Below, piece by piece: positions 41,808 to 51,710 of a stretch of DNA of 64,000 nucleotides; position 1 is the first letter of the stretch; each line of letters starts with the position of its first letter. A program made the position numbers and the translations under genes. This DNA comes from Clostridia bacterium (GTDB lineage: Bacteria; Bacillota; Clostridia; Oscillospirales; Acutalibacteraceae). Location of the stretch: contig JAFWZR010000030.1 in the NCBI GenBank assembly GCA_017522225.1, forward strand, positions 46,016 to 110,015, given 5' to 3'. Below the pieces are notes generated by a model. It was not told the origin of the DNA. It saw only the letters and a list, made by a program, of their open reading frames with translations, and made no database searches.

Positions 41808-43475
41808 ATGTTTAAGTTTGAACCCTATGTCAAATACAAGGTAAACGGTAAGGTCTGCAAGAGCGACGACCTCGAAACCAAGCACTATTCACTCGACCTT
41901 GAGGTAAGCGAAAATGCCGTAAAGTGCGTTATCCGTCCGAAGGTAAAAATGGAGATGCTCAAGTTCCGTCTCGATGCTGACAAGAAGCTCGGCAAAAACG
42001 AGGTTTTCTTTGCAAACGGCTTCCAGTCATGGACAAAGTGCTACGAGTGCCACGCTGATGATACAATCATCGGTCTCGGTAAAATCACTCAGATCAGCGA
42101 CTTTACAAAATTCTTTGCAGGTGTACAGGGCGACTACCATTTCACCGAGTACGAAAAGAAGGGTAACTTCCACTCCTATACATATACCTACTTCAGAGAC
42201 GGTGAGGATCTTGAGCTCTTCGGTTCACGCAGTGAGCGCGAGGGATACACAATCTTTGAAATGGATTGCGACGACAAGCGCTTCAGCATCACAAAGGACA
42301 TCGAAGGCTGTACTCTTGACAGTGAGACAGTGCTTGTTGACGTTGTCAGCTTCAAGGGTGAGTATGACGAGGTTTTCGACAAGTATTTCGGTTCAATGAC
42401 TCTCAGAAAGCCGAAGATCAATTATCTTGCAGGCTACACATCATGGTATAACTATTATCAGAAGATCAACGAGGAAATCATTCTCCGTGACCTTGACGGA
42501 CTCGACAGAGCAAAGGACAGCGTTTCCATCTTCCAGATTGATGACGGTTACGAGACCTTTGTCGGTGACTGGCTTGACCCGAACCCCGCAAAATTCCCCC
42601 ACGGTATGAAATACATTGCCGACAAGGTGCACGATAAGGGCTACCTTGCAGGTATCTGGATTGCTCCGTTCAGCGTTCAGCGCGTTTCAAGAATTGCTAA
42701 AGAGCATCCCGACTGGCTCATCAAGGATAAGAAGGGCAAGCCTCTTCTCGGCTGTCAGGGCTGGGGCGGCGCTTACACACTCGACTTCTACCATCCCGAG
42801 GCAAGAGAATACATCAGACATTTCTTTGATGTTATTGTAAACGAATGGGGATTCGATATGGTTAAGCTCGACTTCCTTTATTCTGAGGCAATGTTCCCGA
42901 GACACGGCAAGACACGCGGTACAATTATGTGTGAGGCTATGGACTTCCTTCGTGAATGTGTCGGTGAGGAAAAGCTCATCCTCGGCTGCGGTGTGCCTCT
43001 CGGACCGTCATTCGGTGTTGTTGATGCCTGCCGTATCGGCTGTGACGTTTCTCCGCACTTCGAATTCAACTTTATCGATAAGCTTCTTCTTAATATGGAA
43101 ATCGTTAACACAAGACACGCGATGAACAACACATTCCTTCGCCGTCATCTTGACCAGAGAGTTTTCTGTAACGACCCTGACGTTTTCTTCCTTCGTGATA
43201 ATAATCTTAAGTTCACGCTCGACCAGAAGCTCCTTCTTGCAAAAATCAACAATCTCTTCGGCAGCGTTCTTTTTGTTTCTGACAATGCAGGCGACTATGA
43301 CGACGAGACTATGGAATATCTCAAGCTCTTCTTCAAGCCCAGCGAAGCAAAAATCCTCTCCGCTGAGTATGTTACACCCGAGGATGTCAAGATCTGTTAC
43401 ATCGAGGACGACAAGAAAAAGACTCTTCGCTTCAACATAAAAACAGGTAAGAGCAATCTTCGTAATCTTTTATAA
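41808..43475 (+). CDS. Glycoside hydrolase family 36 alpha-galactosidase
   Basis: 555 residues, no signal peptide, so cytoplasmic. An N-terminal beta-sandwich (about 1-200) is followed by the (beta/alpha)8 barrel. The nucleophile Asp lies in MVKLDFLYSEAM (about 349), and the acid/base Asp in CRIGCDVSPH (about 411); SIFQIDDGYE and GIWIAPF (about 285-291) are other family strands. It hydrolyses alpha-1,6-galactosides such as melibiose and raffinose. Shorter than the ~730-residue GH36 enzymes, resembling the compact clan-D group. It has its own promoter and AAGGAG site. Confidence 0.93.
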   Translation: MFKFEPYVKYKVNGKVCKSDDLETKHYSLDLEVSENAVKCVIRPKVKMEMLKFRLDADKKLGKNEVFFANGFQSWTKCYECHADDTIIGLGKITQISDFTKFFAGVQGDYHFTEYEKKGNFHSYTYTYFRDGEDLELFGSRSEREGYTIFEMDCDDKRFSITKDIEGCTLDSETVLVDVVSFKGEYDEVFDKYFGSMTLRKPKINYLAGYTSWYNYYQKINEEIILRDLDGLDRAKDSVSIFQIDDGYETFVGDWLDPNPAKFPHGMKYIADKVHDKGYLAGIWIAPFSVQRVSRIAKEHPDWLIKDKKGKPLLGCQGWGGAYTLDFYHPEAREYIRHFFDVIVNEWGFDMVKLDFLYSEAMFPRHGKTRGTIMCEAMDFLRECVGEEKLILGCGVPLGPSFGVVDACRIGCDVSPHFEFNFIDKLLLNMEIVNTRHAMNNTFLRRHLDQRVFCNDPDVFFLRDNNLKFTLDQKLLLAKINNLFGSVLFVSDNAGDYDDETMEYLKLFFKPSEAKILSAEYVTPEDVKICYIEDDKKKTLRFNIKTGKSNLRNLL

Positions 43476-43492
43476 AAATTTTTAAAAAGTTG

Positions 43493-43521
43493 TTGACAAC
43501 GCTTTTGGGCGGTGTTATAAT
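43493..43521 (+). promoter_or_regulatory. Consensus promoter of the aromatic amino acid operon
   Basis: TTGACA (43493-43498), 17-bp spacer, TATAAT (43516-43521): both hexamers match the consensus fully and the spacing is ideal. It lies 28 bp before the leader peptide and about 190 bp before aroF. Such a strong promoter suits control by attenuation after initiation. Confidence 0.9.
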
Positions 43522-43548
43522 TAGTCAAAACTTTAGGAGATTAAAGCA

Positions 43549-43608
43549 ATGAAGCACATCAATCTTGCAGCTGAATACTTTTACTTTTTCTTTATTAACA
43601 AAAGTTAA
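43549..43608 (+). CDS. Phe/Tyr-rich leader peptide of the aro operon
   Basis: 19 codons, MKHINLAAEYFYFFFINKS. It has an AGGAG site (43535-43539) 9 nt before the ATG and starts about 22 nt after the predicted transcript start. Codons 10-15 are Tyr-Phe-Tyr-Phe-Phe-Phe (43576-43593), the two end products of the operon it precedes. An intrinsic terminator follows 46 bp after its stop and 22 bp before the aroF start. This is the layout of pheA-, pheST- and trp-type ribosome-mediated attenuators. It is one of the strongest non-protein signals in the window; only experiments could prove it. Confidence 0.82.
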   Translation: MKHINLAAEYFYFFFINKS

Positions 43609-43620
43609 TAGAGATAGTTG

Positions 43621-43670
43621 GTTTTGCTGTAAAGTTGATTGATAAAGGATTTTTAGTTCCGCAGTAAAAT
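43621..43670 (+). promoter_or_regulatory. Possible antiterminator of the aro attenuator
   Basis: 43621-43630 (GTTTTGCTGT) can pair with 43661-43670 (GCAGTAAAAT) over 10 positions, three of them G-U. This would take up the 5' arm of the terminator. A ribosome stalled at the Tyr/Phe codons would leave 43621-43630 free; one that finishes the leader would approach it. The competing structure is inferred from complementarity only. Confidence 0.45.
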
Positions 43671-43687
43671 GAACTGCGGAACTTTTT
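43655..43687 (+). terminator. Intrinsic terminator (attenuator) before aroF
   Basis: Perfect 11-bp stem (43655-43665 with 43673-43683), loop AAAATGA, then a T-run (43683-43687). It lies between the leader peptide and aroF, so unregulated read-through would be low; strong evidence for conditional termination. Confidence 0.88.
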
Positions 43688-43709
43688 ATTTGTTATTGGA
43701 GGTTTTATT

Positions 43710-44726
43710 ATGGTAGTAGTAATTAAAAACGGTGTTGATAAGATTCAGCAGGACAGACTTGTTGAATGGCTCAAGTCAATGAACATTGATGTTCACGAGA
43801 CTGTCGGTGAATTCCAGACAATTCTCGGTCTTATCGGTGACACAAGCCACGTTGATATCGATCTTATCACCGGCCTTGATATTGTTGAACGCGTTACACG
43901 AATCAGTGAGCCGTTCAAAAACGCAAACAGAAAATTCCATCCCGATGACACGGTTATCGACATCGGCGGCTTAAAAATAGGCGGAGGAAACTTCCAATAC
44001 ATTGCAGGTCCCTGCTCTGTTGAGTCACCCGATCAGATCTGCTCAATCGCAAAGGATGTAAAGCAGGCAGGCGCTATGCTTCTTCGCGGCGGCGCCTTCA
44101 AGCCAAGAACATCTCCCTACGCTTTCCAGGGTATGCGTGCAGAGGGACTCAGACTTCTTGAGGAAGCAAAAAAGCAGACCGGTATGCCGATCGTTACGGA
44201 GATTATGGACCTTTCACACCTTGACCTTTTCGAGAATGTTGACGTAATTCAGGTCGGTGCAAGAAATATGCAGAACTTCGAGCTTCTCAAGGAGCTCGGT
44301 CACACAGATAAGCCGATTCTTCTCAAACGCGGTCTTTCAAGCACAATGGAAGAGCTTCTGATGAGTGCCGAATACATTATGGCAGGCGGTAACGAAAAGG
44401 TTATCCTTTGTGAACGCGGTATCCGTACCTTCGAGAAGTATACAAGAAACACTATGGACGTTTCTGCAATCGCTCTTCTTAAGGAAAAATCACATCTTCC
44501 CGTTATTGCTGACCCGAGCCACGCAGCAGGTCTTTCAAGACTTGTTCGTCCGCTTGCACTTTCCGCAGTTGCAGCAGGTGCAGACGGTCTTATGATCGAG
44601 GTTCACAACGATCCCGCACACGCACTTTGCGACGGACCTCAGGCTCTTACACCTGACCAGTTCGCACAGGTTGTCAGGGAAGCGGAGGTTGTCCGTAAAG
44701 TTTTACACGGCATTGAAACCGAATAA
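43710..44726 (+). CDS. aroF: 3-deoxy-7-phosphoheptulonate synthase (type I beta)
   Basis: 338 residues; condenses PEP and erythrose 4-phosphate, the first step to chorismate. The N-terminal ~75 residues are a ferredoxin-like regulatory domain, as in Thermotoga-type enzymes where it mediates Phe/Tyr inhibition. The barrel has AGPCSVES (about 98-105), RGGAFKPRTSPYAFQG (about 127-142), the metal Cys and PSHAAG (His about 273). GGAGG is 7 nt before the ATG. First gene of an eight-gene operon preceded by the attenuator. Confidence 0.96.
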   Translation: MVVVIKNGVDKIQQDRLVEWLKSMNIDVHETVGEFQTILGLIGDTSHVDIDLITGLDIVERVTRISEPFKNANRKFHPDDTVIDIGGLKIGGGNFQYIAGPCSVESPDQICSIAKDVKQAGAMLLRGGAFKPRTSPYAFQGMRAEGLRLLEEAKKQTGMPIVTEIMDLSHLDLFENVDVIQVGARNMQNFELLKELGHTDKPILLKRGLSSTMEELLMSAEYIMAGGNEKVILCERGIRTFEKYTRNTMDVSAIALLKEKSHLPVIADPSHAAGLSRLVRPLALSAVAAGADGLMIEVHNDPAHALCDGPQALTPDQFAQVVREAEVVRKVLHGIETE

Positions 44727-44759
44727 AAATAGTTATATAATATGAAAGGAAATGATAAC

Positions 44760-45587
44760 ATGAATATCGGAATAATCGGGCTCGGTCTTATAGGCGGTTC
44801 AATGGCAAAGGCAATTAAGGAATCGACGTCGCATAAGGTCTACGGTTATGACATTCTTGAAAGCACTGTACTTGCCGCACAGCTGACAAAATCCGTTGAC
44901 GGCATACTTGACACAGAGACGCTCAGGGAATGTGACATTGTTATCGTTTCACTTTACCCCCAGGCAACAGTTGATTATGTGGTAAGCAATGCGTCCGTAT
45001 TCAAAAAGGACTGCGTGGTAATTGATTGCAGCGGTGTAAAGCGAAGCGTTTGCACAAAGCTCGAATCCGTTGCACAAAAAAACGGCTTTACCTTCATCGG
45101 AGGTCATCCGATGGCAGGTACACAGTTCTGGGGATTTGACTATTCCCGTTCAAGTCTTTTTAAGGGTGCGTCAATGATTCTCACCCCTCACAGCACAGAC
45201 ATTGCCGTGCTTGAGAAGGTCAAGGAGCTGTTTATTGCAATCGGCTTTGCCGACATCACCTTTACCACACCTGAGGAGCACGACAGAATTATTGCTTACA
45301 CCTCGCAGCTTGCACACGTTGTTTCAAACGCTTATGTCAAAAGTCCGACAGCACTTGACCGTAAGGGTTTTTCGGCAGGCAGTTATAAGGATATGACAAG
45401 AGTTGCGAAGCTCAACGAAAATATGTGGACAGAGCTTTTCCTTGAAAACAGAGATTATCTTGCAGAAGAAATTGATCTGCTGATTAAAAATCTCTCACAA
45501 TACAAAAATGCTCTTGAAAACAATGATGAGGCTGAATTAAGAAAACTGCTCAAGGATGGCAGAGACACTAAAAAACAGGCGGGATGA
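44760..45587 (+). CDS. tyrA: Prephenate dehydrogenase
   Basis: 275 residues. The Rossmann motif GLGLIGGSMAKAI opens the protein; GGHPMAGTQFWGFDYS (about 118-133) has the catalytic His, and the HxxxS/N part is seen in SQLAHVVSNAY (about 184-194). It makes 4-hydroxyphenylpyruvate for tyrosine. No ACT domain is present, so regulation would be by the operon attenuator or another site. The ATG at 44760 is 9 nt from AAGGA; an earlier in-frame ATG has no site. Confidence 0.93.
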   Translation: MNIGIIGLGLIGGSMAKAIKESTSHKVYGYDILESTVLAAQLTKSVDGILDTETLRECDIVIVSLYPQATVDYVVSNASVFKKDCVVIDCSGVKRSVCTKLESVAQKNGFTFIGGHPMAGTQFWGFDYSRSSLFKGASMILTPHSTDIAVLEKVKELFIAIGFADITFTTPEEHDRIIAYTSQLAHVVSNAYVKSPTALDRKGFSAGSYKDMTRVAKLNENMWTELFLENRDYLAEEIDLLIKNLSQYKNALENNDEAELRKLLKDGRDTKKQAG

Positions 45588-45591
45588 TTAT

Positions 45592-46635
45592 ATGAACATT
45601 GTTAAGGTTAACGCTTCAAAAAAATATGATGTTATCATCGGCAGTAAAACGGCATCGCTTCTGCCCGAAAAAATCAACGAACTTTTCGGCAATGTGAAGG
45701 TGTGCATTGTTACGGACGACACAGTTGCAGGACTTCACCTTGACAGCCTGAAGAATGAGCTTAACCGCAATCACATCATAAACGAGGCTTTTGTTTTCCC
45801 TCACGGTGAAAATTCAAAATGTCCCGAGGTGCTTTTTGAGCTGCTCGAATTCCTTGCAACAAAGCATTTTTCACGCAAGGATGTGATTGTCGCACTCGGC
45901 GGAGGTGTTACAGGTGACCTGACCGGTCTTGCTGCCGCACTTTATATGAGAGGTATGCATCTTGTACAAATGCCGACAACACTTCTTGCAATGGTCGATT
46001 CTTCCGTCGGGGGTAAGACAGCCGTCAACCTGAAAGCGGGCAAAAATCTTGCAGGTGTGTTCAATCAGCCTGAACTTGTACTTTGTGACACCGATATGCT
46101 CTCTACCCTCCCTGCCGAATATTTTGCAGAAGGTATGGCTGAGGTTATCAAGTACGGTGTGATTGCCGACAAGGAGCTTTTTGACGTTGTGAAAAACGGC
46201 AGTATTGAAGAAAATCTTGAAGCGATTATCACCCGCTGTGTTGCAATCAAGCGTGATGTTGTGGGTGAAGATGAGTTTGACACAGGTAAAAGACAGCTTC
46301 TGAATTTTGGCCACACACTTGCACATTCAATTGAAAAAGAAAGCAACTTCACAATCTCTCACGGCAACGCGGTTGCAATGGGTATGGTTATAATTTCTGA
46401 AATTGCGTGGAAAAACGGAATGTCCGTGGAGCGTTGTCAGGACGAAATTGTTGACGCTCTGCTCGAAAACAATCTTCCGATTGCCTGTCCGTACAAAAAC
46501 AGTGAGCTTTATTATGCGACAGAAAATGACAAAAAGAGTGCTTCGGGCAGAATTTCGATTGTTGTACCCGAAAAAATCGGCTCCTGCAACATTATTGACA
46601 TACCTCTTGCTGAATTCAGGGAGTTGCTTAAATAA
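45592..46635 (+). CDS. aroB: 3-dehydroquinate synthase
   Basis: 347 residues. NAD-binding and catalytic motifs include GGGVTGDLTGLAAALYMRG (about 101-119), VDSSVGGKTAVN (about 137-148), and the metal ligands in the GHTLAHSIE (about 241-249) stretch and E in EGMAEVIKYG. Second step of the shikimate path. The start at 45592 follows the tyrA stop by 4 nt and fits the family; an upstream start would overlap tyrA. Confidence 0.96.
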   Translation: MNIVKVNASKKYDVIIGSKTASLLPEKINELFGNVKVCIVTDDTVAGLHLDSLKNELNRNHIINEAFVFPHGENSKCPEVLFELLEFLATKHFSRKDVIVALGGGVTGDLTGLAAALYMRGMHLVQMPTTLLAMVDSSVGGKTAVNLKAGKNLAGVFNQPELVLCDTDMLSTLPAEYFAEGMAEVIKYGVIADKELFDVVKNGSIEENLEAIITRCVAIKRDVVGEDEFDTGKRQLLNFGHTLAHSIEKESNFTISHGNAVAMGMVIISEIAWKNGMSVERCQDEIVDALLENNLPIACPYKNSELYYATENDKKSASGRISIVVPEKIGSCNIIDIPLAEFRELLK

Positions 46636-47867
46636 TGGACATTAAGATTACACCCTCTGTGCTTTCCGGCACGGCAGAAGCACCTGCTTCAAAGTCCGTT
46701 GCACACAGAATGCTCATCTGTGCCGCACTTGCCGGAGGTAAAAGCAGAATTAAAATAAACAAAACCTCCGAGGATATTGAGGCAACAGCAAGCTGTCTTG
46801 CCTCACTCGGTGTTAAAATAGAAAAAGACGGAGCAACGTGGACGGTTACCCCGCCCGACGCTTTCCCGAAAGAGGCTACCCTCGACTGCGGTGAAAGCGG
46901 CTCAACACTCCGTTTTATGCTGCCCGTTGTTTCCGCTCTCGGAATAACGGCGACCCTGACAGGTCACGGCAGATTACCCGAAAGACCGATTGCACCGCTT
47001 CTTGACGAAATGAAAAAACACGGTATCAGCTGCGGTGACGGCTTCCCCATAAAGGTATCGGGCAGACTTACGGGCGGTAAATATAAAATCGCAGGTAACA
47101 TCAGCTCACAGTTTATAACCGGCTTGCTGCTTGCACTCCCCCTTTGTGACGGTGAAAGTGTGATTGAGGTTATTCCTCCCGTAGAATCGAAGCCTTACAT
47201 CGACATCACAACATCCGTGCTTGCGGATTTTGGTGTTAAGGTTAAGGAATCAGGAAACATTTACACCGTTTCAGAAGCACTTCCCGTCGGCGGTGCTTTT
47301 ATCGCAGAGGGTGATTGGTCAAATGCCGCATTCCTGCTTGCACTCGGTGCAAGGGTCAGCGGACTTAATCCCTACTCTGTTCAGGGAGACCGAAAAATCC
47401 TCGATGTGCTCACCTCGTTCGGTGCGAAAATCAAAAACGAAAACGGCACTATTCAGGCTGATATATCCGATTTGCATTCAACAGATGTTGACGCATCGGA
47501 TATCCCCGACCTTGTCCCTGTTATTTCTGCACTTGCTGCCTCGGCGGACGGTGAAACAAAAATATACAATGCGGCACGGCTTCGTCTGAAGGAAAGCGAC
47601 CGCATCGAAACTACGGTTCAGATGGTCAATTCACTCGGCGGTGAGGCTGCAGCAACGCAGGACGGCCTTATTATAAAAGGAAAGCCTCAGCTTGCAGGCG
47701 GTACGGTTGACGGATGCGGTGACCACAGAATTGTTATGTCGGCTGCCGTTATGGCTCCGAAGTGCGAAAATCCCGTTGTCATCACGGGTGCACAGGCGGT
47801 TAACAAATCGTATCCCGAATTTTTTAACGAATACACTTCACTCGGAGGTAAGATAAATGTCTTGTAG
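46635..47867 (+). CDS. aroA: 3-phosphoshikimate 1-carboxyvinyltransferase (EPSP synthase)
   Basis: 410 residues. APASKSVAHRML (about 16-27) and the PEP-binding GESGSTLRFMLPV (about 86-98, the GNAGT-like loop here reads GESGST) fit the family, and RLKESDRIETT (about 315-325) is the second signature. Resembling class II (glyphosate-insensitive-type) by the loop form; that is only a suggestion. It starts on the last base of the aroB stop codon. Confidence 0.95.
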   Translation: MDIKITPSVLSGTAEAPASKSVAHRMLICAALAGGKSRIKINKTSEDIEATASCLASLGVKIEKDGATWTVTPPDAFPKEATLDCGESGSTLRFMLPVVSALGITATLTGHGRLPERPIAPLLDEMKKHGISCGDGFPIKVSGRLTGGKYKIAGNISSQFITGLLLALPLCDGESVIEVIPPVESKPYIDITTSVLADFGVKVKESGNIYTVSEALPVGGAFIAEGDWSNAAFLLALGARVSGLNPYSVQGDRKILDVLTSFGAKIKNENGTIQADISDLHSTDVDASDIPDLVPVISALAASADGETKIYNAARLRLKESDRIETTVQMVNSLGGEAAATQDGLIIKGKPQLAGGTVDGCGDHRIVMSAAVMAPKCENPVVITGAQAVNKSYPEFFNEYTSLGGKINVL

Positions 47868-48918
47868 CTTTGGTGAAAAATTTAAAATAACAATTTTCGG
47901 TCAATCCCATTCCGAGGCTATCGGTGTTGTGATTGACGGTGTGCCTGCAGGCATCACGCTTGACAATGAAAGAATTGCAGACTTTATGGCACGTCGCGCT
48001 CCGGGTAAGACTGCATACTCCACCAAAAGAAACGAGAGCGACACACCCGAAATTATTTCGGGTATTGTCGACGGAGTAACCTGCGGTACTCCGATTTGTG
48101 CGATTATAAAAAACAGCGATCAGCACTCAAAGGATTATTCAAAGCTCAGACTCCTTCCCCGTCCGTCGCATTCCGACTTCCCTGCTTTTTTAAAGCATAA
48201 CGGCTTCAACGACATCAGAGGCGGCGGAAACTTCTCAGGCAGAATGACGGCACCGATGTGCTTTGCAGGTGCGGTTGCTATGCAGATTCTTGAGGAAAAC
48301 GGAATAAAAATCGGTGCACATATCGAAAAAATTGCAGGTGTGTGCGACAGTCGTTTTAACCCCGTATATCCCGAGCTTTCGTTGCTTGACGGCAAGGATT
48401 TTCCGCTGATTGATGACGGTGCAAAGGGAAAAATGCTTCAGGCAATCGAAGCAGCACGTCTTGACTGCGATTCCGTCGGCGGTGTTATCGAATGTGCCGT
48501 AACAGGTCTTCCCGTCGGCGCAGGTGAGCCGATGTTCGACGGTGTTGAAAATGTAATGGCTCGGGCAATGTTTGCAATCCCTGCAATCAAGGGTATCGAA
48601 TTCGGCAACGGCTTTGACTGTGCTGACCTTAAGGGAAGCGAAAACAATGACGAATTTGTTGTGACAGACGGTAAAATCACAACCAAGACAAATAATCACG
48701 GCGGTATACTCGGCGGACTCACATCAGGAATGCCTGTTATTTTCCGCGTTGCGGTAAAGCCGACACCGTCAATCTCAAAGCCGCAGATGACGGTCAATCT
48801 TGAAACCAAGACAGCCGAAGAGCTTGTTATCGGCGGCAGGCACGACCCGTGTATTGTTCCGCGTGCCGTTCCCTGTGTTGAGGCTGCAACGGCAATAGCA
48901 ATTTTGAATCTGATTTAA
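47857..48918 (+). CDS. aroC: Chorismate synthase
   Basis: 353 residues. The N-terminal GEKFKITIFGQSHSEAIGVV carries the first signature, with RRAPGKTAYSTKRNE (about 45-58) and the FMN/EPSP loops RPSHSDFPAF and RGGGNFSGR (about 115-123). It needs reduced FMN and makes chorismate, the branch point. It overlaps aroA by 11 nt. Confidence 0.96.
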   Translation: MSCSFGEKFKITIFGQSHSEAIGVVIDGVPAGITLDNERIADFMARRAPGKTAYSTKRNESDTPEIISGIVDGVTCGTPICAIIKNSDQHSKDYSKLRLLPRPSHSDFPAFLKHNGFNDIRGGGNFSGRMTAPMCFAGAVAMQILEENGIKIGAHIEKIAGVCDSRFNPVYPELSLLDGKDFPLIDDGAKGKMLQAIEAARLDCDSVGGVIECAVTGLPVGAGEPMFDGVENVMARAMFAIPAIKGIEFGNGFDCADLKGSENNDEFVVTDGKITTKTNNHGGILGGLTSGMPVIFRVAVKPTPSISKPQMTVNLETKTAEELVIGGRHDPCIVPRAVPCVEAATAIAILNLI

Positions 48919-48928
48919 GGTGTTTTTT

Positions 48929-50065
48929 ATGAATATAAATGATTTGCGTAAAGAAATAGATTCAATCGACAACGAGTTGGTTGAGCTTTTTGAAAAACGT
49001 ATGCGCACAGCTTCTGCGATTGCAGATTATAAACGCAAAAACGGTCTGCCGATTTCTGACAAGGGCAGAGAGCGTGAGGTTATAAACACGGTTACATCAA
49101 AGGTAAGTCCCGAATTCAGCGGATACACAAAGGTGCTTTATCAGACTATCTTTGATGTCAGCTGCTCCTATCAGCGCAGCATAAATTCTAAGGAGTCAAG
49201 CCTTATTGATAAAATCAATAAAGTTACGGCAGAAACTCCTAAGGTGCGTCCCGACCGTGCAGTTGTTGCGTGTCAGGGTGTTGAGGGTGCTTATTCTCAG
49301 CACGCTTGCGAAAAAATGTTCACTTATCCGAGCATTATGTACTTCAGCGGCTTTGAGGATGTTTTCAAGGCTGTTGACACAGGTCTTTGCCGTTACGGTA
49401 TACTGCCCGTTGAAAACAGCTCGGCAGGTTCTGTAAATCAGGTTTATGACCTTATGTCAAAATACAACTTCTACATCACCCAGAGTCTTAAGCTTTGCAT
49501 TGAGCACAAGCTTCTTGCAAACAGCGGTGCAAGCATCAGCTCGATAAAAGAGATTTATTCTCACGAGCAGGCGCTTAACCAGTGCTCTGCATTCATACGC
49601 GAGCTCGGTGTTAAAGCTCACGTGTGCAAAAACACCGCCGAGGCTGCAAAAATTGTTGCAGAGTCAGGCAGAACAGATATAGCTGCGATAGGCTCAAAGG
49701 ACTGCACCGATCTTTACGGCTTGCGTGTGCTTTCGGGCAACATTCAGAACACGCAGAATAACTACACAAGATTTATCTGTATTGCTAAAAATCCCGAGAT
49801 TTACCCCGGTGCAAAAAAGACCAGCCTTATGCTCACTGTTCAGCATAAGCCGGGTTCACTTTATAATATCATCGCACGCTTTGCCGCACTCGGTCTTAAC
49901 CTTACTAAGCTTGAAAGCCGACCGATTACAGGCAGTGACTTTGAATTCAGATTCTATTTTGATATCGAGGCTTCCGTTTACTCTGACGAATTAAAGGAGA
50001 TTATTGCGGAGCTTGAAAACGACTGCGAGGAGTTCACCTATCTCGGCAGTTACACGGAGGATTAA
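48929..50065 (+). CDS. pheA: Bifunctional chorismate mutase / prephenate dehydratase
   Basis: 378 residues in three parts: an AroQ chorismate mutase (about 1-90, LRKEIDSIDNELVELFEKRM with active-site Arg and Lys), a prephenate dehydratase (about 110-285, with GVEGAYSQHA and the NTRF-like NYTRF), and a C-terminal ACT domain (about 298-378, including the ESRP motif seen as LESRPI) that senses Phe. It makes phenylpyruvate. The ATG at 48929 follows AAGG at about 8 nt and is the family start. Confidence 0.94.
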   Translation: MNINDLRKEIDSIDNELVELFEKRMRTASAIADYKRKNGLPISDKGREREVINTVTSKVSPEFSGYTKVLYQTIFDVSCSYQRSINSKESSLIDKINKVTAETPKVRPDRAVVACQGVEGAYSQHACEKMFTYPSIMYFSGFEDVFKAVDTGLCRYGILPVENSSAGSVNQVYDLMSKYNFYITQSLKLCIEHKLLANSGASISSIKEIYSHEQALNQCSAFIRELGVKAHVCKNTAEAAKIVAESGRTDIAAIGSKDCTDLYGLRVLSGNIQNTQNNYTRFICIAKNPEIYPGAKKTSLMLTVQHKPGSLYNIIARFAALGLNLTKLESRPITGSDFEFRFYFDIEASVYSDELKEIIAELENDCEEFTYLGSYTED

Positions 50066-50067
50066 CA

Positions 50068-51288
50068 ATGTACGGTTTACTCGGAAGGAAGCTTTCGCAC
50101 AGTCTTTCCCCGCAGATTCACGCACTTTTCGGTGATTATCCCTACGAGCTTTTTTGCCGTGAGCCCGAAGAGCTTGACGCTTTTTTTGCGGACACAAGTC
50201 TGAAAGCCTTCAATGTTACAATTCCATATAAGGTTGATGCTTACAGGCATTGCGACATCCTTTCCGACACGGCAAAAAAAATCGGCAGTGTAAACACGGT
50301 TGTCCGCCGTGCTGACGGTACGCTTTACGGCGACAATACCGACTATTTCGGCTTTGACTATATGTCAAAAAGCAGCGGTGCCGATTACCGTGGCAAAAAG
50401 GTGCTCGTCCTCGGCAGCGGCGGTGCAAGTCTTACGGTTTGCGAGGTTGCAAAGGATTGCGGTGCAAGGGAGGTTATAGTTGTCAGCCGAAGCGGTGAAA
50501 ACAACTACGACAACATCTCAAAGCACTTTGATGCGGACATCATTGTCAACACCACCCCTGTCGGAATGTATCCGAATAACGGTGAAAGACTTGTTGACCT
50601 TTCCGCCTTCAATCATCTTGAATGTGCGCTCGACCTGATTTATAACCCTTGTCGGACACGATTTCTGCTTGATGCACAAGAGCTTGGTATTCCCTGTGCA
50701 AACGGTCTGACCATGCTTGTGGCACAGGCTCTGCGTTCAGCCGAGCAGTTCATTGACTGCAACTTTGACGACGGAACAATCGAGCGGGTTTATAACACCA
50801 TACTCAACGAGCAGAAAAACATTGTGCTTATCGGTATGCCCGGCTGCGGTAAATCGACTGTCGGCAAGCTCCTTGAGGAAAAGCTCGGCAGAGAGCTTCT
50901 TGATACAGACAGTGAAATTGTAAAGGCTGACGGACGCACAATTCCCGAAATTTTCAGCACCGAGGGTGAACCGTTTTTCCGCTCACTTGAAACCGAGGCG
51001 TGTAAAAGCACGGGCAAATGTCTTGCAAAAATTATTGCAACAGGCGGCGGTGCTGTGATGAAAAAAGAAAACCGTGACGCATTAAGACAAAACGGCACGG
51101 TAATATATCTAAAAAAAGACCTGTCTCTTCTTGCTCTTGACGGCAGACCGCTTTCCAAGGATGAGGATGCCGTGAAAAAGATTTACGAGGCAAGAAAAGA
51201 TACTTATGAAGCATTTGCAGATTTCACGGTTGAGGTAAGTCCCGATGCCGCAATCACTGCAGAAAGGGTGATAAAATGCATATTTTAG
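50068..51288 (+). CDS. aroEK: Fused shikimate dehydrogenase-shikimate kinase
   Basis: 406 residues. The first ~245 are shikimate dehydrogenase: LGRKLSHSLSPQIH (shikimate-binding Ser pair), NVTIPYK with the catalytic Lys (about 53), GDNTDYFGF and the NADP motif VLVLGSGGASLTV. After a short link (TILNEQ) a kinase starts: VLIGMPGCGKSTVGK (Walker A, about 254-262), LLDTDSEIVK, then GEPFFRSLE with the shikimate-binding Arg and ATGGGAV, to the end. Thus steps four and five of the pathway are in one chain. The dehydrogenase domain is slightly short, lacking little. It begins 3 nt after the pheA stop and overlaps aroQ by 13 nt. Confidence 0.93.
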   Translation: MYGLLGRKLSHSLSPQIHALFGDYPYELFCREPEELDAFFADTSLKAFNVTIPYKVDAYRHCDILSDTAKKIGSVNTVVRRADGTLYGDNTDYFGFDYMSKSSGADYRGKKVLVLGSGGASLTVCEVAKDCGAREVIVVSRSGENNYDNISKHFDADIIVNTTPVGMYPNNGERLVDLSAFNHLECALDLIYNPCRTRFLLDAQELGIPCANGLTMLVAQALRSAEQFIDCNFDDGTIERVYNTILNEQKNIVLIGMPGCGKSTVGKLLEEKLGRELLDTDSEIVKADGRTIPEIFSTEGEPFFRSLETEACKSTGKCLAKIIATGGGAVMKKENRDALRQNGTVIYLKKDLSLLALDGRPLSKDEDAVKKIYEARKDTYEAFADFTVEVSPDAAITAERVIKCIF

Positions 51289-51710
51289 TAATCAACGGAC
51301 CGAACATCAATATGCTCGGTATAAGAGAGCCTGATATCTACGGCAAGAGCACTTACGCTGACCTTTGCGATGTGATTAAAAATAAAGCTGACGAAATGAA
51401 CATAACAGTTGAGCTTTTTCAGTCAAATCACGAGGGCTCGATTGTTGACAAGATCCAGGAAGCACTCGGCAAGGCTGACGGCATTGTTATCAACCCTGCG
51501 GCATACACTCACACAAGCGTAGCCATTCTTGATGCGCTGAAGGCTGTGCAGATACCCACCTGCGAGGTGCATATTTCAGATGTTAATACCCGCGAGGATT
51601 TCCGCAAGATTTCCTATGTCGGAATGTATGCAGAAAAAACCATTGCAGGCTACGGCTTCGACGGTTACATTATGGCTATGGAATATCTGAAAGAAAAATA
51701 CGGTAAATAA
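51276..51710 (+). CDS. aroQ: 3-dehydroquinate dehydratase, type II
   Basis: 144 residues, the type II dodecameric enzyme. NGPNINMLGIREPDIYG (about 7-23) carries the catalytic Tyr and Arg, NPAAYTHTSVA (about 75-85) the Asn, and CEVHISDVNTREDFR (about 97-111) the His. It catalyses the third step. Last gene of the operon; no clear terminator follows, the next sequence being an IS remnant. Confidence 0.95.
   Translation: MHILVINGPNINMLGIREPDIYGKSTYADLCDVIKNKADEMNITVELFQSNHEGSIVDKIQEALGKADGIVINPAAYTHTSVAILDALKAVQIPTCEVHISDVNTREDFRKISYVGMYAEKTIAGYGFDGYIMAMEYLKEKYGK

Follow-up and report, generated by a model that had tools for sequence, protein, structure and literature searches.

A probable phenylalanine- and tyrosine-sensing leader-peptide attenuator upstream of aroF, with a codon mix that follows gene content across the Clostridia

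In the pheL-pheA and pheST leaders of enteric bacteria, transcription is attenuated by way of Phe codons in a short reading frame and of alternative RNA structures known as 1:2, 2:3 and 3:4, and in the thr and ilv leaders of Escherichia coli the codons of a single leader stand for two or three of a pathway's end products. T-box riboswitches likewise sense tRNA charging and switch a terminator, but they do so by binding the uncharged tRNA directly, without translation. In Firmicutes, T-box or TRAP control is the usual account given of aromatic amino-acid genes (in part PMC2494555). At the same time, reports on related bacteria describe a histidine leader peptide before hisS paralogs in bacilli (PMC2965389) and a Leu-rich attenuator of ilv-leu in Staphylococcus aureus (PMC5794164). 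The closest described system is the uORFC-13-1 motif, a short uORF upstream of aroF in Acholeplasma and in unassigned environmental sequences, with 24 representatives, for which control by the speed of Phe incorporation was proposed (PMC8632094). Because of these reports on hisS, ilv-leu and the aroF of Acholeplasma, the general kind of attenuator must be regarded as already known, and the view that Firmicutes mostly rely on T-box or TRAP control for such genes, put forward in an earlier sequence-only reading of the DNA considered here, needs qualifying for bacilli, Staphylococcus and Acholeplasma.

Here we report an analysis of the leader of an aromatic operon in a 64,000-nucleotide stretch of DNA from a gut Clostridia bacterium (contig JAFWZR010000030.1; hereafter the window). 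As judged from sequence comparison, this leader is very probably a ribosome-mediated (leader-peptide) transcription attenuator that senses the charging of both Phe-tRNA and Tyr-tRNA. The data also suggest that the same kind of switch, in which ribosome stalling senses a shortage of either amino acid, is present in many relatives.

All features of the locus lie on the forward strand. A promoter-like element at 43493..43521 matches TTGACA-17-TATAAT at 12 of 12 positions in a box scan and carries a TG before the -10 box; since sequence shuffles average 1.0 promoter-like site (and 0.2 terminator-like sites), the promoter scan gives no significance by count, although the boxes themselves are perfect. 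It is followed by a Shine-Dalgarno (SD) sequence, AGGAG (43535..43539), and by an ORF of 19 codons (43549..43608) with the product MKHINLAAEYFYFFFINKS, in which the run Tyr-Phe-Tyr-Phe-Phe-Phe at 43576..43593 is the proposed stall site. When the 250 nt before aroF were dinucleotide-shuffled 20000 times, an SD-led ORF with at least six Phe/Tyr per eight residues arose only 29 times, and a chance ORF in AT-rich DNA was rejected on the ground of such shuffles. Between this ORF and aroF stands an intrinsic terminator, an 11-pair stem-loop (43655..43683) with a T-rich tail at 43684-43691, the stem being followed by TTTTATTT. The ATG of aroF at 43710 is 26 nt past the stem and 22 nt past the first four Ts.

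The genes that follow, all assigned by NCBIfam, are aroF (DAHP synthase, 43710..44726), tyrA (prephenate dehydrogenase, 44742..45587), aroB (3-dehydroquinate synthase, 45556..46635), aroA (EPSP synthase, 46635..47867), aroC (chorismate synthase, 47857..48918), pheA (chorismate mutase/prephenate dehydratase, 48920..50065), an aroE-aroK fusion in a single ORF (shikimate dehydrogenase/shikimate kinase, 50068..51288) and aroQ (type II dehydroquinate dehydratase, 51276..51710); for tyrA, pheA and aroE-K the best models score under their curated cut-offs. Together they comprise the common pathway to chorismate and both the Phe and the Tyr branch, without the last transaminase and without trp genes, so that the codons clustered in the short SD-led ORF name the end products of the operon. 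The sequence-only reading had listed a consensus promoter, a 19-codon leader with a ribosome site and the Tyr/Phe run, a perfect 11-bp terminator 22 bp before aroF (a distance that holds when counted from the first four Ts) and eight genes making Phe and Tyr, and all of these are borne out. Upstream of the operon, the gene at 41808-43475 scores a weak 34.5 bits with a beta-L-arabinopyranosidase model whose cut-off is 1100, and perhaps encodes a sugar hydrolase. No match to pheS was found in the window's own assembly, which is 69% complete.

Folding of the leader allows three mutually competing structures to be drawn: a 1:2 structure, a 2:3 antiterminator and the 3:4 terminator. Segment 1 (43555..43576), which overlaps the codons just 5' of the Tyr/Phe run, and segment 2 (43621..43641), a partner of either segment 1 or segment 3, are placed by folding and covariation. 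Segment 3 (43655..43670) consists of the 5' arm and loop of the terminator, and its positions 43661-43670 pair with 43621-43630 in the antiterminator. This helix, which had been pointed out as a possible antiterminator, is indeed drawable with ten pairs, three G-U pairs among them. Its rival, a long 1:2 hairpin (43555-43641) that encloses the Tyr/Phe codons, was absent from the earlier reading; it contains an inner hairpin at 43589..43614 that overlaps the end of the leader ORF and shows both-side changes in 3 of 10 pairs. The terminator has a predicted energy of -17.6 kcal/mol, and the antiterminator-based fold one of -10.2 kcal/mol when, as beneath a stalled ribosome, RNA upstream of 43600 is omitted and synthesis has yet to reach the terminator's 3' arm.

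From the observed ORF, promoter-like and terminator-like sites, alternative pairings, conservation and link between codons and gene content, we infer that the leader is translated, that ribosomes stall in it and that it responds to tRNA charging. Transcription would start near 43528, and a ribosome would translate the 19-codon leader. With both amino acids plentiful, it would pass the Tyr/Phe codons and be released, upon which segment 1 would pair with segment 2, leaving segment 3 free, and the 3:4 terminator would form before aroF. With either amino acid short, the ribosome would stall within the Tyr/Phe run. Segment 1 adjoins these codons on their 5' side, so a ribosome stalled there would cover segment 1 and, with it, the inner hairpin; segment 2 would then pair with segment 3, no terminator would form, and the eight-gene operon would be transcribed.

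The elements of this model are conserved in close relatives. An aroF of the window's kind is present in 14 of 18 genomes of the genus, and a leader ORF with a Tyr/Phe run precedes it at 13 of the 14 loci, in keeping with the expectation that relatives would retain the Phe/Tyr codons; in 10 close leaders the six regulatory codons vary only between Tyr and Phe. In an alignment of 15 close leaders, the terminator has 95.8% standard pairs and both-side changes in 7 of 11 pairs; the outer stem and inner hairpin of the 1:2 structure together have 93.6% and 5 of 17, one outer-stem position being seen as G-U, A-U, G-C and U-A. The terminator's values on four measures (cells paired, pairs, cells and score) were reached by 0 of 500 shuffles, and those of the 1:2 structure by 0 to 6 of 500. 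For the antiterminator, standard pairing stands at 94.0%, and its single both-side change among ten pairs is matched by 124 of 500 shuffles, variation here being too slight for a test. Paired-cell and covariation scores were reached by 0 (terminator), 0 (1:2) and 4 (antiterminator) of 500 shuffles, and the count of further pair types by 340, 194 and 124, respectively. Thus, the covariation anticipated for the terminator/antiterminator pairing is seen in the terminator (7/11 pairs), whereas the antiterminator (94% paired, 1/10) is too invariant to tell.

The one genus leader of 14 without Phe/Tyr codons (L009, genome G001) keeps the terminator and segments 1 and 2, and its ORF ends after MEKR. 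In this genome, no tyrA lies between aroF and aroB, none was matched anywhere in the assembly, and direct comparison over a 12-kb stretch gave none; as the assembly is 79% complete, absence of the gene elsewhere is likely though uncertain. The pheA of G001 is a chorismate mutase of 92 residues without the dehydratase domain, which aligns to pheA residues 1-92 only, and aroF, aroB, aroA, aroC, aroE-K and aroQ are full length or nearly so by direct comparison. Loss of the codons with the terminator kept had been named as a finding that would refute attenuation. It occurs only in L009, where it fits the attenuator model, since this genome has no tyrA match and a pheA cut to its chorismate mutase domain: joint loss of the sensing codons and of both branches is what the model predicts. 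As an observation in its own right, G001 (L210:1145-7360) retains the pathway to chorismate together with a chorismate mutase that stands alone (92 aa), but has neither a prephenate dehydratase domain nor a tyrA match. Elsewhere in the genus, G006 also lacks a tyrA match, yet its aroF sits at a contig end, and three genomes without a match to this aroF (G002, G014 and G015) have distant tyrA and pheA genes (33-37% identical), which lie near each other in G014 and G015 and perhaps belong to a second aromatic gene set.

To model the competition between structures, we took the fraction of the terminator 5' arm and loop that is paired upstream, with a stalled ribosome and in free RNA. A terminator scan finds a terminator after the leader in 81 of the 85 leaders of our genus, family and named sets, and these 81 loci were modelled; L052, L095, L111 and L128, without a terminator by the scan rule, were left out, and the terminators picked in L028 and L073, among the 81, look weak. 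The median sequestered fraction is 0.72 with a stalled ribosome, against 0.475 in free RNA, 0.46 for the stalled value in shuffles of the stretch beyond the stall and 0.32 with a ribosome at the stop codon; free RNA thus sequesters the arm about as much as shuffles do. The stalled value exceeds the free one in 74 loci and fails to in seven, and it beats shuffles at p<=0.05 in 45 and not in 36. A sharp switch (stalled >0.3, free <0.15) is seen in only 5 of the 81, and the modelled effect is a shift rather than a clean switch.

For the window the model gives 0.74 stalled, 0.43 free and 0.40 in shuffles. With the ribosome at the stop codon, 0.71 of the arm is still predicted to be sequestered, as against 0.74 when stalled, and most close relatives behave alike; termination in the window and in most close relatives would therefore have to rest on ribosome release and 1:2 pairing. 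The position of the window's ORF, which ends about 12 nt before segment 2, likewise leaves this work to release and 1:2 pairing. The ORF ends at most 30 nt from the terminator in 35 of the 81 loci; where it ends so near, a finishing ribosome could mask segment 2, and in relatives whose ORF reaches or crosses segment 2 it could do so directly. The model accordingly predicts, for the window, a mutually exclusive antiterminator that a stalled ribosome would free and a 1:2 structure that would allow the terminator to form after completed translation, a ribosome at the stop codon alone being insufficient.

The leader is not confined to the genus. By the rule of an SD-led ORF with at least five Phe/Tyr in eight residues upstream of aroF, it was found within 250 nt at 13 of 14 genus loci (shuffles expect 0.14), at 21 of 27 further loci of the family (0.26 expected) and at 41 of 74 named loci (0.38 expected), the last drawn from 80 named loci, of which 76 are distinct and 74 have enough sequence. 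Within 400 nt, it was present at 31 of 40 loci at the order level, representing 18 of 20 families (0.30 expected), and at 21 of 40 at the class level, representing 20 of 36 families (0.37 expected); the loci at these two levels were hand-picked from match lists so as to be spread over families. With all sets taken at 400 nt and duplicates removed (four of 121 loci and three more across sets; two named loci were too short), 135 of 194 loci carry a leader, and the 133 distinct peptides have a common composition but not a common sequence. Named isolates with leaders include Angelakisella massiliensis and Yanshouia hominis, both placed in Oscillospiraceae by the NCBI taxonomy, Aminicella lysinilytica, placed in Peptostreptococcales, and Emergencia sp.

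No leader was found by this rule in the 400 nt upstream of aroF at 59 of the 194 loci. At nine of 27 leaderless named loci a different ORF stands closer than 90 nt upstream of aroF, several other leaderless loci carry Phe/Tyr ORFs excluded by the SD or the density requirement alone, and some have nothing of the kind. Among the variants, three leaders (L034, L039 and L041) are divergent, for example RFIGFAYPRFMAWGFCACRKTG, with spaced aromatic codons and Trp in two of the three, possibly reflecting another specificity. In six others (L110, L168, L182, L186, L187 and L193; for instance FSWGFYFSTGSFCC in L110) a Trp codon lies within or adjoins the Phe/Tyr run and could add Trp sensing. Eight records titled Treponema, Treponemataceae, Oligosphaeraceae, Lentisphaerae or Victivallales (L063, L070, L076, L096, L106, L119, L123 and L127) carry a Clostridia-like aroF at 65-71% identity, some of them with Phe/Tyr ORFs, which points to mislabelled bins or transfer.

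Which amino acids would such a leader sense? Classical pheA leaders are Phe-only, and TTT is the commonest codon in the runs (222 of 519 in the 81 modelled loci), so that a sensor of Phe alone, its Tyr codons being bystanders of AT-rich sequence or of pairing needs, has something to recommend it. We nevertheless consider it quite unlikely. The densest eight-residue windows of the 135 leaders hold 440 Phe, 411 Tyr and 2 Trp, Phe and Tyr being about equally frequent, and both occur in 131 of the leaders; few Ile, Leu, Asn or Lys residues appear in the runs. Moreover, the Tyr share tracks the position of tyrA: it averages 0.53 where tyrA is next after aroF (66 loci) and 0.36 where aroB is next (11 loci). 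In phylogenetic regression on the aroF tree the difference is 0.14, with p=0.007 for the densest window and 0.001 for the whole peptide (0.018 and 0.029 under full Brownian covariance), in an exploratory test confined to the 77 of 85 leaders whose aroF is followed by tyrA or aroB. In 9 of the 11 genomes with the aroF-aroB order tyrA lies elsewhere, and in three it is directly behind a second aroF.

Separate tyrA transcripts with Tyr-rich leaders also argue against sensing of Phe alone. Six such leaders were found, four before stand-alone tyrA genes (L211, L212, L221 and L222) and two before a second aroF-tyrA pair, L213 (8 Tyr, 2 Phe) and L214 (7 Tyr, without any Phe, and satisfying only a looser density rule of 4 Phe/Tyr in 8). 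They hold 44 Tyr to 12 Phe, whereas the main aroF leaders in these genomes hold 23 Tyr to 40 Phe; the shift towards Tyr is present in 6 of 6 genomes (p=0.03 by sign test; p=6e-6 by Fisher's test if residues count as independent), and for all six, folding gives both a hairpin in the leader and a terminator hairpin followed by a T-rich tail. They perhaps represent three lineages, because L212 and L221 belong to a single genus (in coordinates and score, the L212 match is identical to that of G291) and a YYYGFAY core is common to L211, L213 and L222. Such a leader was absent before 28 of the 34 separate tyrA genes read (23 of 25 in one set, and L215-L219), including L215, which has a second aroF-tyrA pair, yet no Tyr-rich leader was found there. 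Before pheA genes away from aroF, where Phe-only leaders had been expected, a Phe/Tyr leader was found in 0 of 9. A gene counts here as separate if the match lists do not place it beside the main aroF; the upstream gene was no criterion for the 25 tyrA and 9 pheA stretches. In two of the genomes with two aroF genes (L213 and L214, with L087 and L069), the main aroF leader is Phe-rich and that of the aroF adjoining tyrA Tyr-rich, as if the first enzyme had been divided into one form under Phe control and one under Tyr control.

The suggestion that one leader could sense both amino acids thus gains support from codon composition and from its link to gene content. It seems to us rather likely that selection has tuned the Phe:Tyr codon mix of a class-wide, fast-evolving switch of the Clostridia to the genes under its control, with both codons for the joint operon, more Phe when tyrA leaves, a Tyr-rich mix where tyrA stands alone or follows a second aroF, and a leader devoid of Phe/Tyr codons once both branches are gone. 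If so, the leader of the joint operon would act as an OR gate, in which either shortage opens the whole shikimate pathway, and in genomes with two aroF copies one would respond chiefly to Phe and its counterpart chiefly to Tyr.

Control of the terminator by other means (a T-box, an RNA-binding protein or a small-molecule riboswitch), with the ORF incidental, is very improbable. T-boxes do occur in the window's own genome (L042-L049, G000), where nine matches, three of them above the cut-off, lie on contigs other than that of the leader, so that this lineage uses both systems. At gathering scores, on the other hand, neither the window nor any of 40 further loci that were scanned matches an Rfam family, the T-box family (RF00230) has no match in the window's leader, and a lax scan of 43480-43760 gave two weak matches only, to unrelated families. 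Leader sequences are also too variable for a fixed binding site, and their Phe/Tyr content is constant. To our knowledge, arrest peptides require fixed residues. An arrest peptide, in which the nascent chain would bind free Phe or Tyr inside the ribosome much as TnaC, a short leader peptide reported to act in this way (PMC8429421), does with Trp, is scarcely credible here, because the 133 distinct peptides retain composition, not order or flanking residues.

Six leaders other than the window's, scanned against Pfam and NCBIfam, match no known leader-peptide family. A tie to the enteric pheL family through a shared MKHI start looks like chance, as MKHI occurs in none of the other genus leaders. 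The attenuator interpretation of the earlier reading is supported as far as genome comparison can speak to it.

In relation to known systems, the leader shares with enteric pheL-pheA and pheST the principle of leader-peptide attenuation, Phe codons and 1:2, 2:3 and 3:4 structures, but those leaders respond to Phe only and precede a single biosynthetic gene or synthetase genes, not the common pathway with both branches. It resembles the thr and ilv leaders of Escherichia coli in naming more than one product, and differs from them in pathway and phylum. The open-licence literature searched, a scope outside which most subscription papers fall, yielded no account of a Phe/Tyr leader ahead of aroF in Clostridia; as far as that literature shows, the Phe/Tyr version and its spread through the Clostridia are undescribed. 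Its presence in 18 of the 20 families sampled from one order and in 20 of the 36 sampled from the rest of the class alters the T-box/TRAP picture for many gut anaerobes, and the natural series of joint operon, split tyrA, doubled aroF and lost branches makes the evolution of attenuator specificity testable. The leaders of hisS in bacilli and ilv-leu in Staphylococcus aureus are, in the published accounts, transcription attenuators of Firmicutes too, for other amino acids and operons (PMC2965389, PMC5794164). Nearest of all, uORFC-13-1 likewise consists of a short uORF with SD, Phe codon(s) and promoter-like boxes, directly before an intrinsic terminator and upstream of aroF; the section devoted to it speaks of 'at least one' Phe codon and names no Tyr codons (PMC8632094), and it is from this description of the motif that the Clostridia leader is set apart by its runs of both Phe and Tyr and by its occurrence in many families.
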